A stretch of DNA of 64,000 bases from Bacteroidales bacterium (GTDB lineage Bacteria; Bacteroidota; Bacteroidia; Bacteroidales; Lentimicrobiaceae). The stretch covers positions 1 to 64,000 of the forward strand of contig JAEUTG010000046.1 in NCBI GenBank assembly GCA_016788045.1. Reading direction: 5' to 3'. The position numbers and the translations under genes were made by a program. Below the pieces are notes generated by a model. It searched no databases. It worked only from the letters and a program-made list of their open reading frames with translations, and had not been told where the DNA came from. Shown piece after piece: positions 6,780 through 27,471 of the stretch (positions within the stretch are counted from its first letter, which is position 1; each line of letters begins with the position of its first letter).

Positions 6780-6791
6780 TTTTAATTGCAG

Positions 6792-6827
6792 GCAGGGACA
6801 CGATAAGATATCGTGTCCCTGCTTTTT
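6792..6827 (+). terminator. Intrinsic terminator after the secreted protease gene
   Basis: A perfect 14-bp stem (6792-6805 with 6809-6822, GCAGGGACACGATA) closes a 3-nt loop and is followed by TTTTT. It lies 12 bp after the TAG stop at 6779 and before the next gene at 6842. Confidence 0.85.
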
Positions 6828-6841
6828 AAAATATTTTTAAT

Positions 6842-8464
6842 ATGAAAGTGAAGTTCCTTTTATTGATCTTGTTTTCAATTTCCTTTACATTTTGTAATAG
6901 CCAGCCTCTTATTATTGACTGGCAGAATTGTTTTGGGGGCCCAGGTAATGAGAAGGCATTTGACCTTGTAAGTACCGGCGATGGATATATAATCTTGGTT
7001 TCTCATTATGTTGATGAAATCCAGGGGCGTAATATTCAGTTGTTGAAGACGGATACCGGAGGCAATATTGTTTGGGAAAAATCATTGGGAGGAACAAAGT
7101 TCGATGAGCCCTGCCGAATTTTTAGTGCAGGTAATGGAAATTATTTCATAACAAGCGTTGCCACATCATCAGATGGCGACATTACTAACGACCCATATCC
7201 TACGGCTATGAATAACTGGATTCTTAAAATAAATGGGTCAGGCGAAATTTTATGGGAAAAGATTTACGGTGGAACGTGCATAGATAATGGAAATTTTGGA
7301 ACTACAACCTCCGATGGTAGTGTCATTGCATATTGTTACACATGTTCTGATGATGGTGATATCACGAATAATTATGGCAGTTACGATGCCTGGATGGTTA
7401 AAGTTGACAGTTTGGGCAACAAGGTATGGGACTTTACCATCGGCCATAATAATGGCGACTTTTCGAACGCTATTATTGAAACCTCAGACCGGGGTATTTT
7501 GGCGGCCTTACAGTCATATAGGGCTACCGGGGGTAATATTGAATGTGAATACTTCAATGAATACACCGATATCGTGTTGTTTAAATTGGATTCTGTGGCC
7601 AATATTGAATGGCAACAATGCTATGGAGGTAGCCAGATTGAATATGTGTATGATATAATTGAAACTACCGATGGGTATATATTGGCCGGAAGTGGGGAAT
7701 CTGATGACGGCGATCTTGCCGGGTCAGGATACCATTTAGGGTACGATAACAATGGTAATCAAACGAGTGATATCTGGTTGTTAAAGATTGATTTTACCGG
7801 CAACGTAATCTGGAGCAAATGCTATGGAGGAACAAGAAATGAATATGCTAATCGTGTTTTTCAAACCGGGGATGGCGGGTTTATTATATTTGGTGAAACC
7901 GGTTCTTTTGATGGTGATGTAACGGGCAATCATTCAGCCGGACCTGGTATCAGTGATATTTGGGTTATCAGAATTGATAGCATCGGACAACTATTATGGC
8001 AGCAATGTATCGGAGGCAATGGTTATGATCGCCTAGTATTAGGTGTTGTTGACAATGGGGATGGTAGTTTTGTAATCGCATCAACAATCTATGATTTTAA
8101 TTCTGGCCAGGTTGAATGCCCCACCACTAATGGAAGCGACCAGGTGTGGCTGATTAAAGTAATGGATACTACAGTTGTAAACATCCATGAAAAACCTCTT
8201 GCAGGAAATGGTGTTAAAGCTTATCCTAACCCAGCCAATGATTATGTGATATTTGAAGAAGTAGGGACACGGAATGTGGCGTCGAAAAAAGGCAATGAGC
8301 CAACATTACTCATTACCGATATTTATGGCCGTGCGGTCGCTCATTTATCTGTAATAGGTGATAAAACAATATGGGATGTAAGAGGAGTTGCACCAGGGGT
8401 GTATTTATACCAAATAATAAATGGCAGTATTTCTGACAAAGGAAAACTAATGATTTCACATTAA
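6842..8464 (+). CDS. Secreted beta-propeller-like repeat protein with T9SS sorting domain
   Basis: This is a 540-residue exported protein. The signal peptide (FLLLILFSISFTFCNS) ends near residue 20. The body is made of about six repeats of 50-80 residues, each with the pattern W-x-x-C-[FIY]-G-G, then TGDGYIL or a similar segment, then DGD and a D-x-W-[LMV]-[LIV]-[KR]-[LI]-[DN] strand. This suggests a beta-propeller related to proteins common in Bacteroidota and archaea. The last 80 residues (AYPNPANDYVIFEEV, ITDIYGRAV, VAPGVYLYQI) are a type A T9SS sorting domain. It follows the protease gene after a strong terminator, so it is probably transcribed separately. Its function is not known; an adhesive or binding role is a guess. 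Confidence 0.75.
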   Translation: MKVKFLLLILFSISFTFCNSQPLIIDWQNCFGGPGNEKAFDLVSTGDGYIILVSHYVDEIQGRNIQLLKTDTGGNIVWEKSLGGTKFDEPCRIFSAGNGNYFITSVATSSDGDITNDPYPTAMNNWILKINGSGEILWEKIYGGTCIDNGNFGTTTSDGSVIAYCYTCSDDGDITNNYGSYDAWMVKVDSLGNKVWDFTIGHNNGDFSNAIIETSDRGILAALQSYRATGGNIECEYFNEYTDIVLFKLDSVANIEWQQCYGGSQIEYVYDIIETTDGYILAGSGESDDGDLAGSGYHLGYDNNGNQTSDIWLLKIDFTGNVIWSKCYGGTRNEYANRVFQTGDGGFIIFGETGSFDGDVTGNHSAGPGISDIWVIRIDSIGQLLWQQCIGGNGYDRLVLGVVDNGDGSFVIASTIYDFNSGQVECPTTNGSDQVWLIKVMDTTVVNIHEKPLAGNGVKAYPNPANDYVIFEEVGTRNVASKKGNEPTLLITDIYGRAVAHLSVIGDKTIWDVRGVAPGVYLYQIINGSISDKGKLMISH

Positions 8465-11662: not shown

Positions 11663-12412
11663 ATGAAAAGCGATTCGAAAACCTATGTGTGGGGGCTTCC
11701 CACAAGATTGTTTCACTGGCTGCTGGTGCTTTCACTGGCCGGCGCCTACGTTGCGGAAGAAAGCAACCTCACCGCCCATGTGGCCCTGGGCTATCTGGCC
11801 GGCATTCTGATGATTTTCCGGTTGATCTGGGGACTTGTCGGGCCTGAATACGTCAGATTCAGGGATTTTCCTGTCGGAGTAAGATCCATTAAGCAATTTC
11901 TGTCTGATATGCGCAATAACGGGCAAAAACATGCTGGCCACAACCCGGCAGCCTCCCTTGTTATGCTCGGTATCATGCTGATTGTGCTGATGGTAGTTTT
12001 TTCAGGTTTGATGACCCTCAGCCAGGAAGGCGGACAGGGTCTGTTTAAATCGGTAGCCATCCCTGCCGGCATCAGGTTTAAAGAAGTGCACGAGTTCTGG
12101 GTGCAGGTGCTGATTGCCCTCACCGTGCTTCACCTGGTCGGCCTGATTGTGGATACCATTCTCCACCCTCAGACCGGAACCCTGAAATCGATGTTCTCCG
12201 GGTATAAATCAGGAATCAGCGGAGAAAATGCCTCCATGAACGGTTTCCAGAAATTCTTTTCGTTTGTGTGGATTATTGCCCCGCTGGTGGCTTTTATCCT
12301 GACCATTACCGGCCCTCCGGTTTTGCTCAGTGAAGGGGAGGAGGAAGGTCAGTCAACCGAAACCACTATTTCGGAAGATGAAGCCCATGAACAGGAAGAG
12401 GAAAATGAGTAA
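11663..12412 (+). CDS. Cytochrome b561-type membrane protein
   Basis: This is a 249-residue membrane protein of the cytochrome b561 / Ni,Fe-hydrogenase cytochrome b family (PF01292). The N-terminal WGLPTRLFHWLLVLSLAGAY is the family signature with a haem-ligand His. Further His residues lie in AHVALGY, KEVHEFW and TVLHLVGL, each in or next to a membrane helix, giving the usual two b-haem sites across four helices. A fifth helix (FVWIIAPLVAFILTITG) precedes a very acidic 30-residue tail, which is unusual. Its role is electron transfer between quinone and a soluble or membrane c-type or hydrogenase partner. The CDF exporter begins 24 bp downstream, so they may be co-transcribed. Confidence 0.85.
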   Translation: MKSDSKTYVWGLPTRLFHWLLVLSLAGAYVAEESNLTAHVALGYLAGILMIFRLIWGLVGPEYVRFRDFPVGVRSIKQFLSDMRNNGQKHAGHNPAASLVMLGIMLIVLMVVFSGLMTLSQEGGQGLFKSVAIPAGIRFKEVHEFWVQVLIALTVLHLVGLIVDTILHPQTGTLKSMFSGYKSGISGENASMNGFQKFFSFVWIIAPLVAFILTITGPPVLLSEGEEEGQSTETTISEDEAHEQEEENE

Positions 12413-12436
12413 ATTCCGGTTCAGAACTGCACGCGC

Positions 12437-13303
12437 ATGGAACAGGTAAAAGATGAAAAACAACGGGTAGCAGGCTGGTCGGTGATGGCAGCAATCCTCC
12501 TTACAGGGGGTAAGTTGTTGGTCGGCCTGCTAACCGGCAGCCTTGGAATACTCTCCGAAGCACTTCACTCGGGGCTTGATCTGGTGGCTGCCGTGATCAC
12601 CTGGTTTGCAGTAAGGATATCCGACAAGCCCCCTGATAAGGATCATCCTTACGGACATGGTAAAATAGAAAATCTGTCAGCACTCATTGAATCACTGCTT
12701 TTACTCATCACCTGTGGATGGATTATCTACGAAGCCACCAGCAGGCTTATTTCAGGCCAGACCCACCTGGAAGTGACTCTGTGGAGCTATCTTGTGGTCG
12801 GGGTATCCATCATCATCGACATTTCGCGGTCAAGGGCCCTGATGCGGGTAGCACGGAAACACAACAGCCAGGCCCTGGAAGCCGATGCGTTGCACTTCTC
12901 CACAGATATCTGGAGTTCTGCTGTGGTGTTGCTGGGCCTGATCTGCGCGGATTTCGGATATTATCTTGCCGATTCTGTGGCAGCACTGGGTGTTGCCCTG
13001 ATCGTGATTTTTGTAACAGTCAGGCTGGGCCGCAGGGCGGTTGATGCACTGCTCGACAAGGCTCCGGAAGGCATTCAGCAAAAAATTGAGCAAATCCTGA
13101 ATGCAAATCCTCAGGTGATTGCTTTTCATGACCTCAGGGTAAGAACGGCAGGGGCAGACTACTTTGTGGATGTCACCATTCATGTGGACCGCAGCCTGGG
13201 AATTGGAGAAGCCCACGGGGTTTCCGACAGGCTTGAAGCCCTTATAAGGTCACAGGTTAAACGTTGTGTTGTTCAGGTGCATACGGAGCCTGATGACACT
13301 TAA
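12437..13303 (+). CDS. Cation diffusion facilitator (CDF) metal exporter
   Basis: This 288-residue CDF protein exports divalent metal by proton exchange across the inner membrane. Helix 2 carries SEALHSGLDLV and helix 5 carries ALHFSTDIWSS, giving two HxxxD pairs. That ligand set is common in zinc/cadmium-type members, whereas iron-type FieF has DxxxD. DHPYGHGKIENLSAL is the conserved cytoplasmic loop motif. The C-terminal 80 residues (DLRVRTAGADYFVDVTIHVD) form the cytoplasmic ferredoxin-like dimerisation domain. Six membrane helices are apparent and the length is typical. It is unclear whether its link with the preceding cytochrome is functional. Confidence 0.9.
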   Translation: MEQVKDEKQRVAGWSVMAAILLTGGKLLVGLLTGSLGILSEALHSGLDLVAAVITWFAVRISDKPPDKDHPYGHGKIENLSALIESLLLLITCGWIIYEATSRLISGQTHLEVTLWSYLVVGVSIIIDISRSRALMRVARKHNSQALEADALHFSTDIWSSAVVLLGLICADFGYYLADSVAALGVALIVIFVTVRLGRRAVDALLDKAPEGIQQKIEQILNANPQVIAFHDLRVRTAGADYFVDVTIHVDRSLGIGEAHGVSDRLEALIRSQVKRCVVQVHTEPDDT

Positions 13304-13358: not shown

Positions 13359-15017
13359 TCAGAAACTTTTGCTTACCTGCAGAAAAATCCTGTTGAGCAG
13401 GTACCTTGAATCGTAATTGCCTTCGTAGTAAAATGAGCAGGACAGCTTCTTCATAACCTTCCAGTTGAGGCTGATTTCGCCGGAATGCTGCATCTGATTG
13501 TAATCGTTGCCGGTGTAGGTATAATCAGCAAAACGATAGGTAAATCCACCGCTGAGTTTTCCACGGATCAGGTCTCTGGAAAGACTGAGCGCAAAAACAT
13601 TGCCGTTGAGGTAGCTGGTACCGAGCAGTGTCGCAGACAGGGTGGCATTGATGCCGGTATAGGGTATCTGACTGTAGGTGGCATAAACATAAAGATTCTT
13701 TGAAGCAGCCGGATCTCCCTTCCTGAAACGGTACCCGCCGTTCGCACCCACCGCAAGCAATTTAAGCGGACGATAATTTACCTGAAGCAGCACTCCCTGT
13801 TGGGTTTCTTTTTCCAGCAGTTGTTCGATGAAGCTTTTATAGGTCTCGTAGTAAATAATGTTCTTTCGTGAACTGTACGAAACTGACACCGACATCCTGC
13901 TGCTGACCTTATACCGGAGAGAAAGATACATATTGGAAAGTTCCGGTGCTTTGTTGATTTCCTTCAGGGTGTCAGATTGGGGTAATAAACTATCGGTTAC
14001 TATTTTATACCGGTAGAGATCAAACTCTGTACTCCCGAAAAAACTAAGGTTTGGGATGAGCGTATTGCTGTGTTGCAGGTATGCAAAACGCCGGTCGGTG
14101 ACCCCTGAGTTCTTCTGTTCAACAAAAGCCAGGGTAGTTTGCAGGTTCCCGTGTGTTGATGTGGATTCATGACTTAAAAAAGCTCCGTATTGGAATAATT
14201 TTGTATTGAAACCGTAATTGCTGTAATCCGGCCTCGATCCGGCGAGCAGGCCGGTAGTAAAGTTGCGCGTTTTAAGCTCGAACTGAAGTCCGTCAACCGC
14301 GCCCATATTCGATAATTTCGGATTTATCTTCCGTCCTGCGACAATCCTGGCAGTTTTACCAAGGGCATAAGCCACCGACAGGTTGTAGATTTTAAGACCA
14401 TTGAAAACATTCTCCCTGATGTCGCCCCACCGCCCGTTTCTGTGCGAAAAGGTGACGTACGATTCAGCCGAAAACGCGGAACCGCCGATATTTTTGGCAT
14501 TCAGGAGCAGGTTGTACCTCATTCTCAGAGAATTGCCGTAGGAAGCTCCGGTAAGGTTGGTATAACTGGCAACGGAAACCCTGCCATAGATTGCTTCACT
14601 GTTCCGTTTTTTCGTATCCGTAGTTTTCTCAAGTGTATCAGCAGGGGAAGCCTGTTTTTCAACAGGTGGTTCGTTCACCGGAGCCGGATTCTTTTCAGTT
14701 TCAGGGTTTCCAGCTGCTTCGCGCTTATTCGTAAAAAAGATGCGGTCGTCCGAAGTGAACTTCCTATCGGTCAGCGGTTCACACACACAAGAGAAGGAGG
14801 AGCGTGCACTTACCCTGAGGGCGGCTTCTTTCCTGCCACCGATCATAATGTAAAGTGTATCTCCTTCTGCGATGTTCTCTGTGGTTTTAAACTTCACATA
14901 TACGTTTCGCGAAGTAACATAGGAAACAACCCCTTCAACAGGTTCTTTTGAATTCTGTGCTTTCAGTATCGGAGCAAAGAATAAACAGAGCAGTAAAATC
15001 CGGATTGAGGGCTTCAT
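13359..15017 (-). CDS. Outer-membrane beta-barrel, last gene of the multihaem operon
   Basis: This 552-residue protein is the last gene of the five-gene operon, 10 bp after the 37-haem cytochrome. A signal peptide (ILLLCLFFAPILKAQ) ends near residue 20. Residues about 25-95 form a small beta domain (VEGVVSYVTSRNVYVKF, NIAEGDTLYI). A Pro/Glu/Thr-rich linker follows to about 135, then some 410 residues with alternating hydrophobic and polar strands and aromatic girdles, ending in Phe (NRIFLQVSKSF). This is the form of an outer-membrane barrel of about 16-18 strands. By position it may be the porin that holds or anchors the cytochromes at the outer membrane, as MtrB-type porins do. No sequence resemblance to MtrB could be seen, so this role is inferred from context. 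Confidence 0.75.
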   Translation of the reverse strand: MKPSIRILLLCLFFAPILKAQNSKEPVEGVVSYVTSRNVYVKFKTTENIAEGDTLYIMIGGRKEAALRVSARSSFSCVCEPLTDRKFTSDDRIFFTNKREAAGNPETEKNPAPVNEPPVEKQASPADTLEKTTDTKKRNSEAIYGRVSVASYTNLTGASYGNSLRMRYNLLLNAKNIGGSAFSAESYVTFSHRNGRWGDIRENVFNGLKIYNLSVAYALGKTARIVAGRKINPKLSNMGAVDGLQFELKTRNFTTGLLAGSRPDYSNYGFNTKLFQYGAFLSHESTSTHGNLQTTLAFVEQKNSGVTDRRFAYLQHSNTLIPNLSFFGSTEFDLYRYKIVTDSLLPQSDTLKEINKAPELSNMYLSLRYKVSSRMSVSVSYSSRKNIIYYETYKSFIEQLLEKETQQGVLLQVNYRPLKLLAVGANGGYRFRKGDPAASKNLYVYATYSQIPYTGINATLSATLLGTSYLNGNVFALSLSRDLIRGKLSGGFTYRFADYTYTGNDYNQMQHSGEISLNWKVMKKLSCSFYYEGNYDSRYLLNRIFLQVSKSF

Positions 15018-15027
15018 GGCTGTTTCC

Positions 15028-17883
15028 TTAGTTTTGTCTGAATTCCTGTTTCCGTATCATGCTTTTACTGTCACCATCGGGGTGGCAGTTAAAGCAGGCA
15101 TTCGAGTTGTACTGGTATCCGCTCACCTCATCGTGTTCATCGTCCATTTCAGACTGGTTGTGTTCATGACAATCAATGCAACTGAACATGGCATAGTTTG
15201 ATGGATTGGTGTGACAGTCGGCGCATGAATTCCACTCTCCGTTGTGTTTGCCGGAATAGATCGGAAAATATTGATTGTCATGGTTAAATGTTGATGGCGT
15301 CCAGCCGTTTTCAGTATGGCAATCCTGGCAGGTAACCGGGAACTGGGCTGAAAGATGCGGCGGGTCATTCGTCTGGTTATAGGTATCTATATGACAATCC
15401 GCGCAGGTATTGGGTGTAGAATTATAGTTACCGTTGTGGCAGTCGGAACAATTGCCAGCAATCACCGCGTGGGCGCCATTCAGCGGGTAGTACTGGTTGT
15501 GGATGGGGAAGGTTGCCGGTTGCCAGCCCGGAAGGGTCGTATGGCAATCAGCACAGGTATTCGGCAAACCGAGTGACACATGATTCGGGTTAGCAGCCTG
15601 TGTATAGGCATTGGTATGGCAATCGCTGCACACGGCTGATGTTCCTGAGTAGCCACTGCTATGGCAGCCCTCGCAGCTTGCATTCACATGGGCGCCCGTG
15701 AGCGGGAAAGAGGTAGTGTTGTGGTCAAACCCCGCCGAAGCATCGCCGGTGGGATGACAGGCAAAGCAGGAGGGGGTATTGTAACTGTATCCGCCGATTC
15801 CCTGATGTTCACTGTTCATTTCGGCCTGGTTGTGGGCATGACAATCGATGCAACTGAACTGGCTGTAATCCGATGGATTCGTATGGCAATCAGAACAAAG
15901 GCTCCATTCTCCGTTGTGCTTTCCCGAGTAAACAGGGAAATACTGTCCGTCGTGATTGAATGTTGACGGCACCCAGCCATTTTCGGTATGGCAGGTCTGG
16001 CATTCGGTCGGGAACTGAGCCGATGCATGGGGAGGATTGGTCGTCTGGTTATAGCCTTCGATATGGCAACCGGCACAGGTGTTCGGGGTTGTAATGTAAT
16101 TACCGTTGTGGCAGGAGGCGCAATCGTTTGAAATGGTGGCATGGGCACCGTTCAGAGGGTAAACCTCATTGTGATCCGGGAAAGCAGCAGGCCGCCATCC
16201 GGGTTCTGTAGAATGACAATCCGCACAGGTATTCGGGATACCTGCCTGTTGATGGTTGGGATTGGTCGTCTGGTTATAGCTGCTCACATGGCAATCACCA
16301 CATACCAGGGTGGTGCCGGCATATCCGTTGGTATGACAATCAGCGCAGGCGGTAACCGTGTGTGCGCCGGTGAGCGGAAACGCTGTGTTGTTGTGATTAA
16401 AGCCGGAAGCTGCATCTCCGGTCGGATGACAGGAAAAGCAGGATGGACTGTCGTACAGGTATCCGTTTATGCCGGTATGTTCTTCATCCGTATCGGGTTT
16501 GTTGTGATCGTGGCAATCGATGCAACTGAACTGACCATAATCCGATGGATTGGTATGACAATCCGAGCATTGCTGCCATTCCCCGTTATGCTTACCTGAA
16601 TAGATCGGGAAATACTGACCGTCATGTTCAAATGTTGCTGGTTTCCAGGCTGTTTCCGCGTGACAAGTCAGGCATTCTGTAGAGAATTGTGAAGCGGCAT
16701 GCGGGGGATTGGTGGTCTGGTTATAATCTTCCAGGTGGCATCCGATACAGGTATTCGGCGTATTGTAGTAGTTGTTCTGATGGCACGATGCACAATTGTC
16801 AGCAATCAGGGCATGCGCCCCGTTGAGGGCATATACATCGTTGTGAGATGGAAAGCGGGCAGGGCTCCAGCCAGGAGCCGTAGTATGGCAGGTTTCGCAG
16901 GTGTTGGGCAAAGAAATCGAACCATGACTGGGGTTCGTTGTACTGTTGTAATCATCCTGATGACAGGCACTGCATGCTGTTGAGAGCGCTGTGTTGCCGT
17001 TGGTATGGCAATCCTCACACAAGGTGGAAGTATGTGCCCCTGTAAGCGGGAATCCGGTATTGTTGTGGTTAAAACTGCCATTTCCTGAACCGCTCGGGTG
17101 GCAGCCATAACAGGCGAGACTGTTGTAGCTGTATCCCGATACACCACCATGCTCATTGTCCATATCTCCCCGGTTGTGCTCGTGACAGCCTGTACAGCTG
17201 AATTCACCGTAATTGGCAGGATTCGTATGACAATCATTGCATTGATTCCACACCCCCTGGTGCTGGCCTGAATAGATCGGGAAATGCTCTGCATCATGTG
17301 CACTGAACTCCATCCAGGAATAGCCACTCACGAAATGACATTCTTCACAGTTGGTTGAATAGCCTGCTGTGAGGTGGTTTGGTTGTGTGGTTGACATATA
17401 GTCCTCCTGATGACAGGCGTAACATTCAACACTGAGCGGCTCGAAAATCAGGGAGGAGGCTGATTTATGACATTCGTCGCACGATGCCCCGGCATGGGCT
17501 CCCAGCAGCGGAAAGCGGGTTTGCTGGTGCAGCAGGGTAACATTGCTGATCAGCCATGATTCGGGTGTATGACACCTTTCACACTGATTGTCTGTTGTTT
17601 GCCCGTGGATATCGGTGTGGCAGGCGATGCAGGCAGGATCGGCTTCGTCAAAAACCAGCGATTCGTGGCATGACCTGCAGTTGGTTTGCCTGTGCATCCC
17701 GGTCAGCGGCATGGCAGTAACATCATGACTGAAGGTGATGCTGTCCTGATTTACCACCCAGCTATCGGTGACATGACACTCGGCACACCCGATGGTGAGG
17801 TCCTTCCCATGCGGGTTTGGTATCATCATCGTTAACGAGGTGAGGAATACCAGGGCTCCGGCAATTAATGACAGTTTTCGCAT
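15028..17883 (-). CDS. Giant multihaem c-type cytochrome with 37 CxxCH motifs
   Basis: This 951-residue protein has 37 CxxCH haem c attachment sites, counted by hand. Seven lie in an N-terminal part (residues 33-183). Nine lie in each of three consecutive 224-residue repeats (215-438, 439-662, 663-886), and three in a partial fourth repeat (887-951). Each repeat also holds about ten other His residues in fixed places (GAH, NPPH, FNHDGQYFP, GKHNGEW), enough for bis-His ligation of every haem. A signal sequence is present (LIAGALVFLTSLTMM); there is no lipobox and no T9SS domain. The recurring F-x-H-N-x-x-x-F-P-L-T-G-x-H-x4-CxxCH pattern resembles cytochrome c3/c7-like and doubled-CxxCH proteins. 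Such a chain would act as a periplasmic or surface haem wire. Its start overlaps the upstream cytochrome gene by 19 bp, so translation is probably coupled. Confidence 0.93.
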   Translation of the reverse strand: MRKLSLIAGALVFLTSLTMMIPNPHGKDLTIGCAECHVTDSWVVNQDSITFSHDVTAMPLTGMHRQTNCRSCHESLVFDEADPACIACHTDIHGQTTDNQCERCHTPESWLISNVTLLHQQTRFPLLGAHAGASCDECHKSASSLIFEPLSVECYACHQEDYMSTTQPNHLTAGYSTNCEECHFVSGYSWMEFSAHDAEHFPIYSGQHQGVWNQCNDCHTNPANYGEFSCTGCHEHNRGDMDNEHGGVSGYSYNSLACYGCHPSGSGNGSFNHNNTGFPLTGAHTSTLCEDCHTNGNTALSTACSACHQDDYNSTTNPSHGSISLPNTCETCHTTAPGWSPARFPSHNDVYALNGAHALIADNCASCHQNNYYNTPNTCIGCHLEDYNQTTNPPHAASQFSTECLTCHAETAWKPATFEHDGQYFPIYSGKHNGEWQQCSDCHTNPSDYGQFSCIDCHDHNKPDTDEEHTGINGYLYDSPSCFSCHPTGDAASGFNHNNTAFPLTGAHTVTACADCHTNGYAGTTLVCGDCHVSSYNQTTNPNHQQAGIPNTCADCHSTEPGWRPAAFPDHNEVYPLNGAHATISNDCASCHNGNYITTPNTCAGCHIEGYNQTTNPPHASAQFPTECQTCHTENGWVPSTFNHDGQYFPVYSGKHNGEWSLCSDCHTNPSDYSQFSCIDCHAHNQAEMNSEHQGIGGYSYNTPSCFACHPTGDASAGFDHNTTSFPLTGAHVNASCEGCHSSGYSGTSAVCSDCHTNAYTQAANPNHVSLGLPNTCADCHTTLPGWQPATFPIHNQYYPLNGAHAVIAGNCSDCHNGNYNSTPNTCADCHIDTYNQTNDPPHLSAQFPVTCQDCHTENGWTPSTFNHDNQYFPIYSGKHNGEWNSCADCHTNPSNYAMFSCIDCHEHNQSEMDDEHDEVSGYQYNSNACFNCHPDGDSKSMIRKQEFRQN
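15031..17241 (-). repeat. Three tandem 672-bp repeats plus a partial fourth within the cytochrome gene
   Basis: Protein repeats of exactly 224 residues map to 16570-17241, 15898-16569 and 15226-15897. A partial unit follows at 15031-15225. Every unit has the same CxxCH spacing (15, 28, 31, 15, 25, 35, 15, 25 and 35 residues from one Cys to the next). This indicates in-frame tandem duplication of a nine-haem module. The two downstream full units look most alike. Confidence 0.9.
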
Positions 17884-19457
17884 TTCACATCCTTAAATTT
17901 ATACTGTCTGTATGGCTTCGGGCTGGCCTCAACCATCTTATGGCAATCGTTACAGGCTACATGAATGTGTTTCCCATCCAGCGGGAATCTTGTTTTGTTG
18001 TGATCAAATCCTGAAAGGGTCCAGTTTTCGGAAGAATGACACCGGGAACAATCGGTAAACCCGTCAACATCGTACTGCCCCGCATGGTTGTCTTCATGGC
18101 AACTGCTGCAGGTTTGCGGCGTACCGGTAAAGCTGATTTTACCGGGTTCCGCTTGTTCCTGTTTTGCATGACAGGAACGGCAGCTCTGATTTGCATGCGC
18201 TCCTGTAATTGCAAATCTGGTAAGAGAATGGTCAAAGGTAATGGCGGCCCAGCTACTCTCTGAATGACAGTTTCTGCAATCTGACCCGGGATAATACTTC
18301 TGATCAAGGTACTCTTTATGAATGTCTTCATGGCAATCGCGGCAAACCAGGCCAATCTCACGGAATGACCAGTTATCTGTTTTTTTGTGACAGGCAATGC
18401 AGGGAATCGCCAGATGTGCGCCGTTCAAAGGGAAACTGCCCTGATTGTGCATTTCAACAGTAAAAATTGTTTCTCCAAACCCGCTGTCGGTATGACATTC
18501 ACGGCAGTCCCTGATGTGGTTGTCCTGCCTGAACTGACCCTTATGGAAATCAGGATGACAATCGGAGCATTTCTGATGCGCCAAAGGCGTTGTATAACTG
18601 CCCTTGTGGCATGAAGCACAGCTAACCGAACTATGCCTGCCGGTAAGCGGAAACCGTGTCTGGTTGTGATTGAAACTGTTGGTTCCCTTTAACTGCCTGA
18701 AAGATTCTTCCGAATGACATTGCGTACAATGCTGGCCGAATTTATTGTCGTGCGGATCGGTATGGCAGTCGGTACAGTTTTTAAACGGGAACCCTGTAAA
18801 CTGCTGGAAATTTTTACCGTTTCGGGTGCTTTTCTTATGACAATCAATACATTGTGTATCAAGATGCTTCCCTTTCAGCCTGAAGCCGGCTTTGTTGTGG
18901 TCAAACCTGCCGGCAGGTTTAAATTTAACATTGTCGTGGCAGTCAGCGCAATTCTCCGACAGGGTCTTCTGGTGATAATCTTCATGACAGGTAAGGCATA
19001 ACGCGTTAAGTCCCAGGTAGGTGTTCTTCTTTTTTCTGATAACCGGATCTTTGATGTTGGCAGCTTTGTGACAATCCTCACATTTTTTTTCAGCATGGGC
19101 TCCGGTTAATTTATATCCCGCCAGGTTATGATCAAACTTAAGCTTGTCGAAGCGGATAATCTCGAAATTCCGGCCATGGTGGTCGCTGTGGCATAGCGTG
19201 CATGATTTTCCGAGAACCTTTGATGAGGAATGATACCCCTTTTTCTGAGCAACCCGGACATTGATTTCCTTATGGCACGAAAGGCATTTGTCGTTCGACA
19301 CCTTTGCCCCCAGTGTATGGCATTTCGTGCAGTTCGACATTCCTTCAAGGTGGGCATGAACCTGGGCAAGGTCACCCGGTGACAGCTGAGCCCTGCCTGC
19401 CTGCGTCAATATGAGCAGCGATATGAGTATGTAAAGCCGGTAGCGTCTTATTTTCAT
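17865..19457 (-). CDS. Multihaem c-type cytochrome with 20 CxxCH motifs
   Basis: This 530-residue exported cytochrome has 20 CxxCH sites by hand count, the first at residue 43 and the last at the very C-terminus, where CENCH ends the protein. The signal peptide (LYILISLLILTQAGRAQ) ends near residue 23. The spacing is less regular than in the next gene, but the same F-D-H-N-x-x-x-F-x-L-x-G-K-H-x4-CxxCH unit recurs (FDHNKAGFRLKGKH, FNHNQTRFPLTGRH, FDHNKTRFPLDGKH). The two cytochromes therefore share an ancestry. It lies 13 bp after the oxidoreductase gene and overlaps the 37-haem gene by 19 bp. A likely role is periplasmic transfer of electrons from the inner-membrane proteins to the larger cytochrome. 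The exact donor and acceptor are unknown. Confidence 0.93.
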   Translation of the reverse strand: MKIRRYRLYILISLLILTQAGRAQLSPGDLAQVHAHLEGMSNCTKCHTLGAKVSNDKCLSCHKEINVRVAQKKGYHSSSKVLGKSCTLCHSDHHGRNFEIIRFDKLKFDHNLAGYKLTGAHAEKKCEDCHKAANIKDPVIRKKKNTYLGLNALCLTCHEDYHQKTLSENCADCHDNVKFKPAGRFDHNKAGFRLKGKHLDTQCIDCHKKSTRNGKNFQQFTGFPFKNCTDCHTDPHDNKFGQHCTQCHSEESFRQLKGTNSFNHNQTRFPLTGRHSSVSCASCHKGSYTTPLAHQKCSDCHPDFHKGQFRQDNHIRDCRECHTDSGFGETIFTVEMHNQGSFPLNGAHLAIPCIACHKKTDNWSFREIGLVCRDCHEDIHKEYLDQKYYPGSDCRNCHSESSWAAITFDHSLTRFAITGAHANQSCRSCHAKQEQAEPGKISFTGTPQTCSSCHEDNHAGQYDVDGFTDCSRCHSSENWTLSGFDHNKTRFPLDGKHIHVACNDCHKMVEASPKPYRQYKFKDVKCENCH

Positions 19458-19470
19458 CAGGTAACTTCCG

Positions 19471-20802
19471 CTAATGTTTCAGAATTGCATCCCCGAATTT
19501 TTTGGTAATCTGTATCCCCGCTTTCATCAGGAACTGGGTGGGTAATTCTCCGCCGGCAAAAATGTATACCAGGTCGTTCGGAATGGTAACCGCTTCTCCG
19601 GTGTCGCTGTTAAGCAGGGTGATGTCTGTTTTGCCGATCTCCGTTACGGTAGTGTTGAACCTGATTTCCGGCTTTCCTTCCTGCGCTGCCTTCACTATCC
19701 GCTCATTGTTCCGGGGTTTAATGCGGCTGAAGGCATTGCCGCGATAAGCCAGAATTACATGATTCTTGTCGGAAAGCAACAGTGCCGATTCAATGGCAGA
19801 GTCTCCACCGCCCACAACGACAATCTCCTTTCCGCTGATTTCTTCGGGTTCCAGAAGGCGGTAAGCGACTTTTTCCTGCATTTCACCCGCGACATCCAGT
19901 TTTCGGGGTGTGCCCCTGCGGCCGATGGCGAGCAGTATGCTTTTGGCTGTATGGATTTCGCCGTTAAGGGTTTTTACCTCAAAATAGTCATCCTTGCGGA
20001 GTATTTCATCAACTTTGGAGTTCTCTTTAATTTCAATACTGTTTTTTGACAAGGCATCCTGCCACAGATTCAGCAATTCGGTTTTGCTGGTTTCGAATAA
20101 CTTAACCTTACCGTAAAGGGGCAATTCCATGGCTGAAGTCATGATGATTTTGGAGCGGGGAAAGGTATAGATGGTTCCCCCCAGCGTGTCCTGTTCAAGT
20201 GTAAGGCACTTGAGCCTGTTCTTTTTTGCAGTGAGGCTGGCAGATATGCCTGCAGGTCCGGCTCCAACCACGATCAGATCATAATCAGCCTGATGATGCA
20301 CTCCGGCAGTTCTCGCGATGTTGTCAACTGCCTGACGGCCCTGTTCAACAGCATTTTTGATGAGGCCCATTCCTCCAAGTTCCCCCGCAATAAAAATACC
20401 GGGTACATTGGTTTCAAAGGTCTGGTTAACATGTGGAAGTTCCACACCCCGTTTTTCAGTACCAATACATAAGGTAATGGCCTGGGTAGGGCAGGCGTGA
20501 AAGCAGGCCCCATGACCTATACACCGGGAAGCATTCACCGTGGTAGCTTTCCCGTTTACAATTCCAAGAATGTCTTTCTCCGGACAGGCAGCCACACAGG
20601 CACCAGTCCTGATACAACTGTTGACATCAATTACCGGATGAAGCGAAACCGGCTCATACAGCCCCTCCAGTTTTGCCTTTTCAATTTTCTCCCTGACAAT
20701 GCCGGAATTCCGGCGTTGTTTACGCACATAAAGGAAAATCACCAGCCCGCAAAGCAGGAAAGCTGTCCCGTAAATGATGATGCTTTCAAGAAGTTGTTCC
20801 AT
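19471..20802 (-). CDS. Membrane-anchored ferredoxin/FAD-NAD(P) oxidoreductase
   Basis: About 443 residues from the ATG at 20802; an alternative GTG lies at 20817, overlapping the upstream gene. One N-terminal membrane helix (IIIYGTAFLLCGLVIFLYV) is followed by a ferredoxin-like domain (CIRTGACVAACP and CIGHGACFHACP). A thioredoxin-reductase-like flavoprotein fills the rest: an FAD-binding VVGAGPAGISASLTA motif, a GRRGTPRKLDV stretch, and a second nucleotide-binding motif VVGGGDSAIESALL. The usual second Cys of each cluster motif (CxxCxxCxxxCP) is Thr in the first and His in the second, which I recall from related proteins of this class. It probably moves electrons between NAD(P)H or ferredoxin and the membrane cytochrome b-like partner, but the direction is unknown. 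Confidence 0.85.
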   Translation of the reverse strand: MEQLLESIIIYGTAFLLCGLVIFLYVRKQRRNSGIVREKIEKAKLEGLYEPVSLHPVIDVNSCIRTGACVAACPEKDILGIVNGKATTVNASRCIGHGACFHACPTQAITLCIGTEKRGVELPHVNQTFETNVPGIFIAGELGGMGLIKNAVEQGRQAVDNIARTAGVHHQADYDLIVVGAGPAGISASLTAKKNRLKCLTLEQDTLGGTIYTFPRSKIIMTSAMELPLYGKVKLFETSKTELLNLWQDALSKNSIEIKENSKVDEILRKDDYFEVKTLNGEIHTAKSILLAIGRRGTPRKLDVAGEMQEKVAYRLLEPEEISGKEIVVVGGGDSAIESALLLSDKNHVILAYRGNAFSRIKPRNNERIVKAAQEGKPEIRFNTTVTEIGKTDITLLNSDTGEAVTIPNDLVYIFAGGELPTQFLMKAGIQITKKFGDAILKH

Positions 20803-20804
20803 AC

Positions 20805-21686
20805 TCAAAAAATCCACCTGTAACCGAAAACGATGGTAACAGCAATATGAATGATCATGATAATCAGCATGATAATGGCAAAAGGTAAATGAGCCACATG
20901 CCAGTACCTGAACAGATTCTGCATAAAGAGCAGGCGGTCGATTTTACGGTTCAGCGAAACTTCATTCCTGACCAGTTTAAGCACTTGCCTGATTTCAGTT
21001 TTGTTCAGGTTCTTACCTTTCAGGCTCTTTCTGACAGACCGGATGGTTGAAAAATCATCGAAATAATTCTTTGTATAACGCCAGAACAGGATTCCCTCTT
21101 CAAGCTCAGCCTTTTTGCGTGTCGATTCAATGATCAGGTTATAACTCATTTCATCCAGCTTGTACCCCGATGATAATACATCACCAAGGTTGCTTTTCAT
21201 CTCGCGCACTTCATTCAGCGTTAATTCGCGGCCTTCTATACTTCGTGGTATCTGAATGTAGATAAATCTGCCGATGATTCCGCTCAGGAATACAGCCACC
21301 ATACTCCAGAAACTGATAGCAACCAGCCCCCCGAACTTGAAGGAGGTATGAAACAGAATCAGCAATGGGCCCAGGGTACACAGAAAAATATGAAATTCGA
21401 GCCAGTGCTTTAGCAGCCCAAGCCTCGAAAGCGATCTGACCCTTTTTCTGAGCACATAAATCAGAACCCCGACGAGCATCAACAACGATCCGAAAATTCC
21501 GAGACCATGCCCCCATGAACCGCTGGGCTTAAGGGCAGCGTAATCGGGATGGAAGAACCTTTCTTCAACAGGAACCCTGTAATAGGAGATGCCTTTTTGC
21601 AGAATATAGACCAACACCAGTGCCACAATGGCAATCAATGCTAAAATGTAAATACGGTGTGCTTTTCCCATTTCTGAACAGTTCAT
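20805..21686 (-). CDS. Cytochrome b-like inner membrane protein, first gene of multihaem operon
   Basis: This 293-residue membrane protein has five or six helices. His residues lie in helix-forming stretches: KHWLEFHIFLCTLGPLLILF, then HTSF, and near the end YWHVAHLPFAII followed by an MIIHIAV segment. This arrangement fits a di-haem b-type electron carrier. Between helices 4 and 5 is a charged cytoplasmic region of about 100 residues (EGRELTLNEVREMKSNLGD... to SLNRKIDRLL) that could dock the next gene's ferredoxin/FAD protein. The stop lies 2 bp before the ATG of that gene. A quinone-linked role is inferred from context; no named family was matched with certainty. Confidence 0.72.
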   Translation of the reverse strand: MNCSEMGKAHRIYILALIAIVALVLVYILQKGISYYRVPVEERFFHPDYAALKPSGSWGHGLGIFGSLLMLVGVLIYVLRKRVRSLSRLGLLKHWLEFHIFLCTLGPLLILFHTSFKFGGLVAISFWSMVAVFLSGIIGRFIYIQIPRSIEGRELTLNEVREMKSNLGDVLSSGYKLDEMSYNLIIESTRKKAELEEGILFWRYTKNYFDDFSTIRSVRKSLKGKNLNKTEIRQVLKLVRNEVSLNRKIDRLLFMQNLFRYWHVAHLPFAIIMLIIMIIHIAVTIVFGYRWIF

Positions 21687-23130: not shown

Positions 23131-26100
23131 TTATTTTGAAAGATAGTTTAATTCAAGGGTCACTGAACTGAACTCAAGCAGGTTATTCAGGTATTCCAGT
23201 TTCAGTTGGAATGCAGTTTCGGTGCTGGCTGCATACCGGTAGAAATCAATTTCGCCTGTATCAAAGCCAAACTGTGCAGTTCTCAGTATCTCAGTGTAGA
23301 GTGTACTTCCCGACTCTTCATATTCTTTTAACCACTGACTTAAACGGTGGTAGTTGTTGAAAAGCTCCTGCTGCCTGGTTTTCAGTTGTATGGTTTCGTT
23401 AGCGTTCAGTTGCCTGGTTGCTTCCAGTGCCAGTTCTGAAGACCTGATTTTCGATTTCTGAGGCCCGAAAAACAGGGGAACAGCCAGTCCGGCCTCAAAT
23501 CCGTGATAGATGCGGGCACTTTCGTATTTGTTTGTACCGAGAAAGTAGGAAAGCTGAAGATCGGGAAGCAGTTTTTTTCGCTCTACGGCCAGGGAATGCT
23601 GGCTTAGCTTTTCACTGTTTCGGAGCTGTATTGTAAACGGAAGCGAATCAATGTTCCTGTTATTCAGGTCAATACGCTGAATTCCCGGTGATACGGTAAA
23701 AGGACCGTCAAGTCCCATCAAAGCACTGAGTCTCAGCATGGCATTATCGATGTTGCTGAGAATTCCGTTCATGAGTTGCCTTGTCTGCTGCTGCCTTGCT
23801 TTGGTATTCAGCAGATCAAGCCTGGTGATATCCCCTTTGCTTTGACGCAGGGCCGAACCTTTCAGTACTTCCATATAGAGGCTGTCGAGATACCGGTACA
23901 GCCGGAGTTTCTCATTCAGGATCTGAATATCCAGGTAGGTCAGGGATACCTGCTTCGCTATCTGTTCCTGCTTCACATTGCTCTCGCTGAATGCAAGCTG
24001 ATGGATGGCTTTCTGTTCTTTCCGGCGGGAAGCATAAAGCGATGGGAAACTGAAATTCTGCGATACGCCCCATACTGTCAGTGGGTGATTGTTGGCTGCA
24101 ATGTTGTTCTGATCGGTTCCAACCGAAAAAACGGTTTTTTCAGGATCGAAGGAAGTAGGGATCAGGGCCTTTTTTTCTTCGGTCATCAAGGCAAACGCTT
24201 TGAGTTCCGGGTTATTCAGCCTGGCCAGTTCAAGAGCCTCGCCGAAACTGATTTGTTTCTGCTGGGCAGAGGCCATCGCGGTAGGAATCGCAATCAACAG
24301 TATTACAAGGCCTTGTCTTCCCCTGATAATCCTGAACGGGAAAAAGCGGACAGATTTAATGTTATAGAAAAGTTCAAACAATATCGGCAGTGCGATCATG
24401 GTCAGCATGGTTGACGTAAAAAGACCTCCGATCACCACTGTTGCCAGCGGTCGTTGTACTTCAGCCCCGGCACCGTTCGAAATTGCCATTGGCAAAAAAC
24501 CCATGGCAGCCGCCCCGGCAGTAAGCATTACCGGCCGAAGCCTGTCTTTCGCACCCATGATGATCAGTTCCCTGAATGAATGAGTGCCTTCACTTTTTAA
24601 CTCCTTCAGATGTTCTATCAGAACGATTCCGTTCAGCACGGCTATCCCAAACAAAGCAATAAAACCAACACCGGCAGATACACTGAAGGGCATATCGCGC
24701 AGCCAGAGCAGAAAGACACCACCTACCGTTGCCAGGGGGATAGCCGTAAAGATCATAATGGCATCTTTAAACGATTGAAAGGCAAAATGCAGGAAAATGA
24801 AAATCAGCAACAAGGCCACAGGAACAGCCACCAGCAGGCGGTTGGTTGCATTCTGCAGGTTTTCGAACTGCCCGCCGTAAGCAATATATGTACCAGGCCT
24901 CAGCGTAATGTTTTTATCAACAGTAGCCTGAATATCTTTTACTACCGACTGCAGATCCCGGTTGCGGACATTTACACTCACCACAACCCTGCGATGGGTG
25001 TTCTCCCGGGAGATTTTTGCCGGTCCTGATGAATATTCAATGGTGGCCAGTTCAGAAAGGGGGATCAGCAAACCATCGTTAACCGGAACCTTCATCTGCT
25101 GGATGTCGTTGATGTCAGTCCGGTTTTTTGTGTCGAACCGCACAACCAGGTCAAAGCGTTTCTCACCTTCAAATACTACACCTGCAGCTTCTCCGCCGAA
25201 TGCCGCCGCGAGGTGTGCGTTCAGCTTACTGATATCCGCTCCGTAGTAAGCAATCTTACTCCTGTTGTAGTCAATTTTTATCTGCGGTAATCCGGCTGTT
25301 TTCTCGAGAATCACATCTCCCGCACCGGGAATATGCTCAATAAGTTTTTTGATTTCATTTGCCTTCTTATCGATATATTCCAGATCATCTCCGAAAATCT
25401 TGATGGCGATATCGGAACGGACACCGGTAATCAGTTCGTTAAAGCGCATTTCAATCGGCTGGGTAAATTCATATTCAATGCCAGGGATTGCCGACAAGGA
25501 GTCTTTAAACCGTTCGGCGAGCTCTTCTTTGCTGCCGGCACTGGTCCATGTTTTTCGGGGCCTGAGTTTGATAATCATATCAATTTCTTCCATCGACATA
25601 GGATCAGTCGGAACTTCAGCGGCCCCGATTCTGCTAACAATTTTATCCACTTCCGGAAAACCCTTTATGAGGATCTGTTCCATTTTCGTGGTTGTTTCAA
25701 TGGTTTTCGAGAGTGAAGTACCTGTCTTAAGTACAGGCTGTATCACAAAATCACCCTCATCGAGGGTCGGCACAAATTCGCCCCCCATTCTGGTAAACAG
25801 GAAGCCTGTCAGCAGTAATGACAGAAGCGCAGCGCCCAAAACAGTTTTTTTGTGGCAACATGCCCACCGGATAACCGGAAGATAGGTTCTGTGTGCCAGG
25901 CTGAGAAACCAGTCAGCGATGGTTCTCTTATCCGATGTTGAAGGCCGCAGAAACAACGAAGAGGCTACCGGTAACCAGGTCAGGCCCATAATCATGGCTC
26001 CGATGATCGCAAAGCAGAACGACAATGCCATGGGTCTGAACATTTTGCCTTCAACGCCGGTAAGGGAAAGAATCGGAATAAAAACAATCAGAATAATGAT

Positions 26101-27471
26101 CTGCCCGAACAAGGCAGATTTCATCATCCTTGAAGCTCCGTCAAACGCAACAGTATCCATCAGATTCATCCGTGCCTCTCCTGTTGTTTCCCTGATTTCA
26201 CTTTTCATCACTGAAATACGCAAAGCAATGAATTCTACAATAATCACCGCCCCATCAATAATAATCCCGAAATCAAGAGCACCCAGGCTCATCAGGTTGG
26301 CATCGATCCCGAAAATATACATCATGGCGATGGTAAAAAGCAACGATAGCGGAATCATTGATGTGATTACCAAAGCTGAACGGAGATTTCCCAGAAGGAG
26401 CATCACGGTTAGCATGACGATGAGGGCGCCGAGAATCAGGTTCTCCACAACGGTAAAGGAAGTTTTGGCAACCAGTTCACTCCGGTCAACAATCGGATTG
26501 ATGAATACACCCTCAGGCAGGTTACCCTGAATCTCTTCAACCCGCTTCTTCACCTCATTGATGACTTCCCTCGAATTTGCATTCTTGAGCATCATCACCT
26601 GCCCCAGAATGGTTTCCCCTTTCCCGTTGGCCGTGATGGCCCCGTAGCGGTTGGCATGGCCTGTCTGAACACTGGCAATGTTCCTGATCAGCACAGGACT
26701 TCCCTTTATATTTTTAACAACAATATTTTCAATGTCTTCCGCGGACTTTACCTGGCCATCGCCGCGGATAAAATAGCTTTGGTTGGTTTTTTCAATGTAA
26801 GAACCGCCCGAAATACTGTTGTTCGACTCAAGGGCATCAAATACTTCCATCAGGGTTATGCCGGTTGCATTCAGCTTCTCAGGGTTTATTGATACTTCAT
26901 ATTGTTTGAGCAATCCGCCCCAGCTGTTGATTTCAACCACCCCATTAATGCCCGAAAGCCTTCGCTTTACCACCCAGTCCTGAATGGTCCTTAACTCCGT
27001 GGCAGAATACCGGTCTTCATATCCCTCCTTCACATCGAGTGTATACTGATAAATCTCACCGAGACCGGTGGTCACTGGTCCCATTTCAGGTTCACCAAAC
27101 CCTTCAGGAATGCTTGCTGAAGCACTTTTTAGTTTTTCTGCAATCAACTGACGGGGAAGATAAGTTCCTGATTTTTCATCGAATACAATGGTTACCAGCG
27201 ATATTCCGAATTTAGAAACGGATCTTATTTCCTTAACCCCAGGTAAATTTGCCATCTCCATCTCAACAGGTGCAGTAATATACTGCTCGATTTCCTGGGT
27301 CGAAAGGTTCCCTGAAGTGGTGATCACCTGAACCTGATTGTTGGTAATATCCGGAACTGCACCTACCGGGATCCTGAACACGGCATACAATCCGAAGGAA
27401 GCAACAGTTAATGTAAACAGAATGATAATCAGCTTATTCTTAATACTGAAGTCAATAATTTTCTCTAGCAT
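23131..27471 (-). CDS. cusA: CusA/CzcA-type RND metal pump fused to a TolC-like outer-membrane factor
   Basis: This 1446-residue fusion has two parts. Residues 1 to about 1040 are a heavy-metal efflux RND transporter: an N-terminal helix, two large periplasmic loops, twelve membrane helices and the helix-4 proton-relay segment DFGIIIDGAVIIVEF. From about 1045 a hydrophobic stretch that still looks like a signal peptide (LVILLIAIPTAMASAQQ) leads into about 390 residues of outer-membrane-factor type, with long helical pairs (FGEALELARLNNPELKAF; RQLNANETIQLKTRQQEL). The fused order is known in Bacteroidota. The former signal peptide would serve as a thirteenth helix placing the TolC-like part in the periplasm. 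The adaptor gene follows within 5 bp. Confidence 0.9.
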   Translation of the reverse strand: MLEKIIDFSIKNKLIIILFTLTVASFGLYAVFRIPVGAVPDITNNQVQVITTSGNLSTQEIEQYITAPVEMEMANLPGVKEIRSVSKFGISLVTIVFDEKSGTYLPRQLIAEKLKSASASIPEGFGEPEMGPVTTGLGEIYQYTLDVKEGYEDRYSATELRTIQDWVVKRRLSGINGVVEINSWGGLLKQYEVSINPEKLNATGITLMEVFDALESNNSISGGSYIEKTNQSYFIRGDGQVKSAEDIENIVVKNIKGSPVLIRNIASVQTGHANRYGAITANGKGETILGQVMMLKNANSREVINEVKKRVEEIQGNLPEGVFINPIVDRSELVAKTSFTVVENLILGALIVMLTVMLLLGNLRSALVITSMIPLSLLFTIAMMYIFGIDANLMSLGALDFGIIIDGAVIIVEFIALRISVMKSEIRETTGEARMNLMDTVAFDGASRMMKSALFGQIIILIVFIPILSLTGVEGKMFRPMALSFCFAIIGAMIMGLTWLPVASSLFLRPSTSDKRTIADWFLSLAHRTYLPVIRWACCHKKTVLGAALLSLLLTGFLFTRMGGEFVPTLDEGDFVIQPVLKTGTSLSKTIETTTKMEQILIKGFPEVDKIVSRIGAAEVPTDPMSMEEIDMIIKLRPRKTWTSAGSKEELAERFKDSLSAIPGIEYEFTQPIEMRFNELITGVRSDIAIKIFGDDLEYIDKKANEIKKLIEHIPGAGDVILEKTAGLPQIKIDYNRSKIAYYGADISKLNAHLAAAFGGEAAGVVFEGEKRFDLVVRFDTKNRTDINDIQQMKVPVNDGLLIPLSELATIEYSSGPAKISRENTHRRVVVSVNVRNRDLQSVVKDIQATVDKNITLRPGTYIAYGGQFENLQNATNRLLVAVPVALLLIFIFLHFAFQSFKDAIMIFTAIPLATVGGVFLLWLRDMPFSVSAGVGFIALFGIAVLNGIVLIEHLKELKSEGTHSFRELIIMGAKDRLRPVMLTAGAAAMGFLPMAISNGAGAEVQRPLATVVIGGLFTSTMLTMIALPILFELFYNIKSVRFFPFRIIRGRQGLVILLIAIPTAMASAQQKQISFGEALELARLNNPELKAFALMTEEKKALIPTSFDPEKTVFSVGTDQNNIAANNHPLTVWGVSQNFSFPSLYASRRKEQKAIHQLAFSESNVKQEQIAKQVSLTYLDIQILNEKLRLYRYLDSLYMEVLKGSALRQSKGDITRLDLLNTKARQQQTRQLMNGILSNIDNAMLRLSALMGLDGPFTVSPGIQRIDLNNRNIDSLPFTIQLRNSEKLSQHSLAVERKKLLPDLQLSYFLGTNKYESARIYHGFEAGLAVPLFFGPQKSKIRSSELALEATRQLNANETIQLKTRQQELFNNYHRLSQWLKEYEESGSTLYTEILRTAQFGFDTGEIDFYRYAASTETAFQLKLEYLNNLLEFSSVTLELNYLSK

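Follow-up and report, generated by a model that had tools for sequence, protein, structure and literature searches.

The described system closest to the operon reported here appears to be porin-cytochrome c complex 3 (PCC3), itself a putative conduit, which is found in Alpha-, Beta- and Gammaproteobacteria (He et al. 2017, PMC5566968). Examples are the gene clusters Slit_0867-0870 and Slit_1446-1449 of S. lithotrophicus (PMC5566968). One PCC3 cytochrome is nearly constant, with a median of 21 haems. The other is variable and built from repeats, with a median of 34 haems and up to 85. The median number of residues per haem is 26 (range 22-39), and the barrel has up to 42 strands (PMC5566968). 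The inner-membrane component, or IMP, is about 300 aa long and has five transmembrane helices, with the motif WX3HX13H on TM3 and TM5 and SGxxG on TM4. He et al. drew an analogy between this protein and NADPH oxidases and ferric reductases (PMC5566968). PCC4 has the same IMP signature, and in its Subgroup II a gene for an Fe-S protein adjoins (PMC5566968).

Other reports concern Bacteroidota more directly. Very large cytochromes have been noted there without an operon (PMC11495043), a different seven-gene cluster has been described in an anode Bacteroidetes (PMC8258643), and Ignavibacteria have conduits of the OmbB/MtrB type (PMC7399161). No report of PCC3 in Bacteroidota was found in the literature searched, which was largely without subscription journals.

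A five-gene operon with 57 haem c motifs

The window, which is the whole 64-kb stretch of DNA analysed, contains five minus-strand genes, here called A to E (Table 1). A sequence-only reading had described five such genes at 13359-21686, together with their gaps and overlap, and had counted 57 haem c motifs. The ORF coordinates agree with this description, and the motif count gives 20 CxxCH in C and 37 in D. These are 57 of the 59 CxxCH motifs in all six frames of the window, far above chance. B and C are separated by 13 bp and D and E by 10 bp, while C and D overlap by 19 bp. Met6 is the most likely start of B, because this residue is invariant in an alignment of homologues; the gap between A and B is then 2 bp. 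From their spacing and linkage the five genes are read as a single operon, and haem attachment is predicted from the CxxCH motifs. A scan of the operon for promoters and terminators gave a signal at background level.

Table 1. Positions of the five genes and of features within them
Feature	Position	Strand	Basis
Gene A	20805..21686	minus	ORF list
Gene B (true start probably 20802)	19471..20817	minus	ORF list
Gene C	17865..19457	minus	ORF list
Gene D	15028..17883	minus	ORF list
Gene E	13359..15017	minus	ORF list
B, Fe-S motifs CxxTxxCxxxCP and CxxHxxCxxxCP	20488..20616	minus	Homologue alignment
B, segment that is C-terminal in ordinary TrxR/YpdA, here before the FAD domain	20284..20466	minus	Profile matches
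D, signal peptide and constant 7-haem head	17278..17883	minus	CxxCH spacings 36,16,16,34,19,25
D, super-repeat of 672 bp, three copies, each of 9 haems in three modules	15106..16674	minus	72% identity between copies
E, signal peptide, small N-terminal beta domain (about 27-95) and predicted 22-strand barrel (142-551)	13359..15017	minus	AlphaFold2

The inner-membrane cytochrome

The product of A is about 290 aa long, and its conserved start may be Met6. Its hydrophobic segments fit five transmembrane helices and two HX13H pairs. The motif WX3HX13H occurs as WLEFHIFLCTLGPLLILFH at residue 95 and as WHVAHLPFAIIMLIIMIIH at residue 262, and SGxxG occurs as SGIIG at residue 135. All 77 complete close homologues have WX3HX13H twice together with SGxxG. 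Among 21 distant homologues, 15 have both WX3HX13H motifs and the others at least one. A has no match in Pfam or NCBIfam. On the basis of the motifs it can very probably be classed with the IMPs of PCC3 and PCC4, as a dihaem cytochrome b.

A parallel to A comes from plasmids. A tblastn run with A against plasmids gave two weak proteobacterial matches, each in a three-gene unit adjoining metal or copper resistance genes (L096:8073-11427 and L097:6537-9259). In both units the A-like protein, with two HX13H pairs and SGxxG, stands between an NAD/FAD/2Fe-2S oxidoreductase and a 7-haem cytochrome of the c7/c3 type. The oxidoreductase belongs to another family than B. The unit looks like a minimal relative of the input module. 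By analogy, the input end of the model proposed below draws its best support from these units, in which another NAD(P)H-type enzyme accompanies a cytochrome b of the same kind and a multihaem cytochrome.

A permuted flavoprotein

B appears to encode a membrane-anchored Fe-S/FAD/NAD(P) oxidoreductase. A single N-terminal transmembrane segment (13-31) is followed by a Fer4 region and then by FAD and NAD(P) domains. The profile matches are to Pyr_redox_3 (E 6e-42) and Fer4_10 (E 5e-11), and the match to PDB entry 7a76 has an E of 1e-28.

The two Fe-S motifs of B have unusual ligands. At the second ligand position, all 92 homologues have His in motif 2; in motif 1 the residue there is Thr in 71, Cys in 11, Ser in 9 and Ala in 1. 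In ferredoxins, such changes lead to a His-ligated 4Fe cluster and to a 3Fe or open cluster, usually with a higher potential. One cluster of B is probably His-ligated, and by analogy with ferredoxins the cluster types and potentials may be similar to these.

The FAD fold of B is predicted to be circularly permuted. A segment with GIFIAGELGG, normally the C-terminal piece of the FAD fold, stands ahead of the FAD domain. Taken alone, this segment aligns with the end of three profiles, those of TIGR04018, TIGR01292 and lipoamide dehydrogenase. When it was re-joined in silico behind the NAD(P) domain, the match to TIGR04018 grew from 1-264 to 1-311 of 316 positions, with a gain of 15.9 bits. An AlphaFold model of B made with 32 relatives was poor (pLDDT 64.8) and was therefore not used for a fold search, so that sequence is the basis of the case for permutation. 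The same FAD order exists outside the five-gene system, in a Pseudoalteromonas protein from an unrelated neighbourhood. This protein, of 784 aa, is encoded on plasmid pPBSW1 (L098:5932-8286). It is fused to membrane and polyferredoxin domains and lies in a glycosyltransferase neighbourhood.

B has FAD and NAD(P) domains in common with YpdA and thioredoxin reductase. Unlike these, it appears permuted, carries a membrane anchor and an Fe-S domain, and is without the redox cysteines. Assignment to the YpdA disulfide reductases was rejected: the score against the family profile TIGR04018 is 153.7 bits, below the cut-off of 339.9, and in the alignment GPA stands in place of GPC, so that the active-site Cys is absent. 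Without the redox Cys pair, disulfide reduction is unlikely.

A constant and a variable cytochrome

C is predicted to be a 20-haem c-type cytochrome with a signal peptide and is probably periplasmic. Its homologues have 20 haems in 79 of 93 cases and 23 in 8; most of the remaining six are ORFs that are split or cut short. C matches the Cytochrome_C7 profile (E 3e-27) and has about 26.5 residues per haem, compared with about 25.7 in D. A sequence search of the PDB with C and D gave no match.

D is predicted to be a 37-haem c-type cytochrome made of a 7-haem head and ten triheme modules. When CX3CH and CX4CH sites are included in the counts, the haem number is 7+3n in 85 of 90 homologues and ranges from 10 to 64. 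Five homologues depart from this rule: three are short paralogues with 9 haems, one is an ORF with 8, and one is missing a single site. Counts of 15, 18, 21, 24, 27 and 30 were rejected as further exceptions, as nearly all of them vanish with this way of counting. The spacing of the haem motifs in the head is exact in 50 of the 90 homologues and nearly identical in most others.

Tandem Repeats Finder reported no repeat in D; the 672-bp unit is longer than its longest period and was found by a separate repeat search. An assembly artefact was rejected as the origin of the repeats, since the copies are just 72% identical and the pattern occurs in many independent assemblies. The number of modules changes readily. 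Two relatives whose A and B are 94% identical have 49 and 34 haems in D, a difference of 15, and at least 26 changes of haem number are required on a tree of A and B (53 rows). A constant C, together with a D that has a constant head and a variable tail, fits a chain with one fixed docking end and one free end.

A second, shorter D is present in some loci. It is a 13-haem copy beside E in five (L028, L040, L045, L081 and L023) and a 9-haem paralogue in three (L117, L119 and L120). Possibly it is this short form that functions at the barrel.

The location of the tail of D can be approached from its length. Haems in such chains are spaced by an estimated 0.8-1 nm per haem, as judged from MtrA. 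Laid straight, 61-64 haems would be longer than the periplasm is wide, which favours an outward wire. A point against the conduit model given below is that sequence offers no explanation for surface anchoring: 89 of 90 D sequences are without a lipoprotein signal (a lipobox-like motif occurs in one), and a profile search of D gave no C-terminal sorting domain.

The outer-membrane barrel

E is predicted to be a 22-strand outer-membrane barrel. The AlphaFold2 model has a mean pLDDT of 83.9, with most strands above 90. All Foldseek matches of the model are outer-membrane barrels, of generic kinds (ushers, AlgE, porins) and with low TM-scores; MtrB stands at rank 44. The modelled fold by itself would be no proof of a cytochrome sheath. 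In the loci examined, E always adjoins D and travels with cytochromes.

Conservation, linkage and gene order

A collection of species genomes was scanned with A and gave 142 relatives, of which the best 80 were analysed. Judged by their titles, almost all of these 80 are metagenome-assembled genomes (MAGs) of Bacteroidota, with one from Chlorobiota and a few named just "bacterium". All five genes occur together in 60 of the best 80 loci: 53 have the plain order A-B-C-D-E, and 7 more have the same genes with an extra D or with a split C or B. The remaining 20 are without the downstream genes, mostly because the contig ends.

A second sample consisted of 395 genomes spread over the phylum Bacteroidota. 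A is present in 40 and E in 33, and all 33 genomes with E also have A. The expected overlap is 3.3 genomes (hypergeometric P 1e-41, a statistic that ignores kinship). Gene order was examined in 20 loci of this sample. The order is A-B-C-D-E in five and A-C-D-E-B in twelve, every one of the latter outside the window's class. A thirteenth locus of the A-C-D-E-B type has an unrecognised ORF where E would be, and in another (L115) the contig stops within E. In deep lineages B has thus shifted to the opposite end and is yet retained, so that the five-gene set is linked despite rearrangement. The remaining locus (L129:11014-12136) is apparently a decayed copy of the operon: B, C and D are missing, and a shortened A stands directly before a 94-aa fragment of E.

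Distribution is patchy at a finer scale, as A occurs in 8 of 19 genomes of the window's own genus. In Emticicia oligotrophica DSM 17448 all five genes lie on plasmid pEMTOL02, where a cytochrome c assembly gene of the CcsA/ResB type directly precedes A.

Neighbouring genes and host

On the plus strand (window 11663-13303), genes for a cytochrome b561 and a CDF (FieF/MamB-like) cation-efflux protein run convergently towards the 3' end of the operon. In 7 other loci the two genes are found together upstream of A, mostly in divergent orientation, and CDF alone is found in 9. These neighbours hint at a link with metal handling. RND metal-efflux genes were rejected as part of the system, with CzcB in none of the loci and weak CzcA-like matches in 5. 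The window itself has a 1446-aa ORF (23131-27471, minus strand) in which a CusA/CzcA-type RND pump (Pfam ACR_tran 5-1035) is joined to an outer-membrane efflux domain of the TolC type (Pfam OEP from 1078). Two ORFs at 2703-8464 (plus strand) have a type IX secretion C-terminal sorting domain (Por_Secre_tail).

Beside the operon, before A or after E, about 26 loci encode a small protein that starts like a lipoprotein and is weakly similar to GW domains (for example L087:8470-8919 and L095:20632-21402). It is absent from the window, and it is a possible sixth component.

In the host genome there are genes for three haem-copper oxidases and for cytochrome c assembly, and a second cytochrome resembling C is absent. 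Given the three oxidases, a conduit would be one route among others, and the host would not depend on it.

Comparison with known systems

The operon resembles PCC3 in several respects. A has the IMP signature. The haem numbers of C and D (20, constant, and 10-64, variable) and their roughly 26 residues per haem are like those of PCC3, and E corresponds to the outer-membrane barrel gene of the PCC3 cluster; for C, D and E the likeness is one of description. The genes are clustered in both systems. They differ in the barrel, which has up to 42 strands in PCC3 and a predicted 22 in E, and in their hosts, which are Proteobacteria and Bacteroidota. PCC3 also consists of four genes without a flavoprotein, whereas B is present in both gene orders of the operon; possibly B is an accessory whose gene lies elsewhere in PCC3 hosts. 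The five-gene system would work like PCC3 and is a variant of that kind, not a proven member. New in comparison with PCC3 are flavoprotein B and the 7+3n triheme ladder of D.

PCC4 has an inner-membrane signature as in A, and the adjoining Fe-S gene of its Subgroup II is a further likeness. It differs in having small cytochromes (4, 5 and 10 haems) and no large one.

MtrCAB, MtoAB and PioAB also combine multihaem cytochromes with an outer-membrane barrel. MtrCAB is fed from quinol through CymA, and its surface cytochrome is a lipoprotein, unlike D. Membership of the MtrCAB/MtoAB group was rejected: the two cytochromes score 32.4-41.0 bits against TIGR03508 (DmsE/MtrA decahaem), below the cut-off of 192.2, E has no MtrB-family match among Pfam and NCBIfam profiles, and D has no lipoprotein anchor.

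A and B together can be compared with NADPH oxidases and ferric reductases, in which NAD(P)H likewise gives electrons to a flavin, from which they reach two b haems (HX13H pairs) and the far side of the membrane. Here the flavoprotein is separate, of the TrxR/YpdA type and with Fe-S clusters, and the electrons would continue to c haems. A has no match to the Pfam FRD family.

A model for electron export

The favoured model is a PCC3-like electron conduit across the envelope that has its own cytoplasmic input enzyme, is independent of quinones and probably exports electrons. Its probability is put at about 0.6. In the proposed order of carriers, NAD(P)H would reduce the FAD of B, and electrons would pass one at a time to its two Fe-S clusters. 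From there they would cross the inner membrane through the two presumed b haems of A, which B adjoins in one of the two gene arrangements, and reach C, whose 20 haems could in principle form a chain long enough to bridge the periplasm. C would pass them to D. The constant 7-haem head of D would dock at C and at barrel E, and the triheme modules would make up an unattached wire that varies in length and most likely lies outside the barrel. In sum, the cell would get rid of reducing equivalents without quinones, by passing them to an extracellular acceptor.

The sequence-only reading had also proposed a conduit, of a kind little described in Bacteroidota. The proposal has gained support from linkage after rearrangement, from PCC3 architecture with the IMP signature, and from co-occurrence, for which the check suggested at the time has now been run with the results given above. 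The remark on novelty holds as far as the literature searched shows, but PCC3 is a describable relative. Against the model, the modelled similarity of E to known barrels appears generic.

A wider version of the model can be advanced only tentatively. In this version a conduit found across the phylum would take electrons from NAD(P)H by way of a permuted Fe-S flavoprotein with a His ligand, bypass quinones, and end in a surface wire whose reach depends on how many triheme modules have been gained or lost (7+3n, 10-64 haems).

Direction and alternative functions

Multihaem conduits can run both ways, and the same proteins might work inward. An outside donor such as Fe(II), reduced minerals, partner cells or a cathode would then supply electrons to D, C and A, and the membrane potential, which the haem-copper oxidases of the host could build, would help to push them up to NAD(P)+ through B. 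PCC3 is found in Fe(II) oxidisers, and in Sideroxydans CL21 its inner-membrane component rises with Fe(II)-oxidising ability (PMC12442390), whereas in S. lithotrophicus ES-1 the PCC3 clusters are lowered in expression on Fe(II) (PMC8788666). These expression data do not settle the direction, and uptake is possible. Many carriers are, by their record titles, MAGs from sediments, lake hypolimnia and digesters, which speaks against inward flow. Transfer from NAD(P)H to a multihaem cytochrome is downhill, and NAD(P)+ reduction from typical multihaem potentials is uphill. Export is therefore preferred, and inward flow is considered unlikely. Outward flow conserves no energy at the conduit step, so the exporting conduit would act as an electron sink.

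The haems might instead serve as a periplasmic store that buffers the cell between oxic and anoxic periods, with nothing leaving the cell. Storage has been proposed for such cytochromes (PMC11495043, PMC7399161, PMC10734462), and 57 haems per operon and a freely varying haem number in D would suit it. However, a capacitor needs no barrel, and the dedicated barrel E is conserved as strongly as the cytochromes, which makes this explanation improbable. It is more improbable still that the chain feeds a soluble or surface oxyanion or metal reductase and serves detoxification rather than general extracellular transfer, despite the weak scores that C obtains against ExtN/ExtO from the selenite/tellurite operon and CDF genes close by in the window and 9 other loci, since those scores (23-24 bits) are far below the 200-bit cut-offs and no reductase gene is conserved beside the five genes, whose commonest neighbour is the small GW-like lipoprotein.

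Significance

Bacteroidota are abundant in sediments, lakes and digesters, and few conduits have been defined in them besides the MtrB/OmbB type of Ignavibacteria. The five-gene marker lets genomes be scored for conduit ability. Because Emticicia oligotrophica DSM 17448, a cultured type strain, carries the operon on a plasmid, function can be tested directly. The 7+3n ladder of D provides a natural length series, in which electron transport can be compared with haem number in otherwise matched systems.
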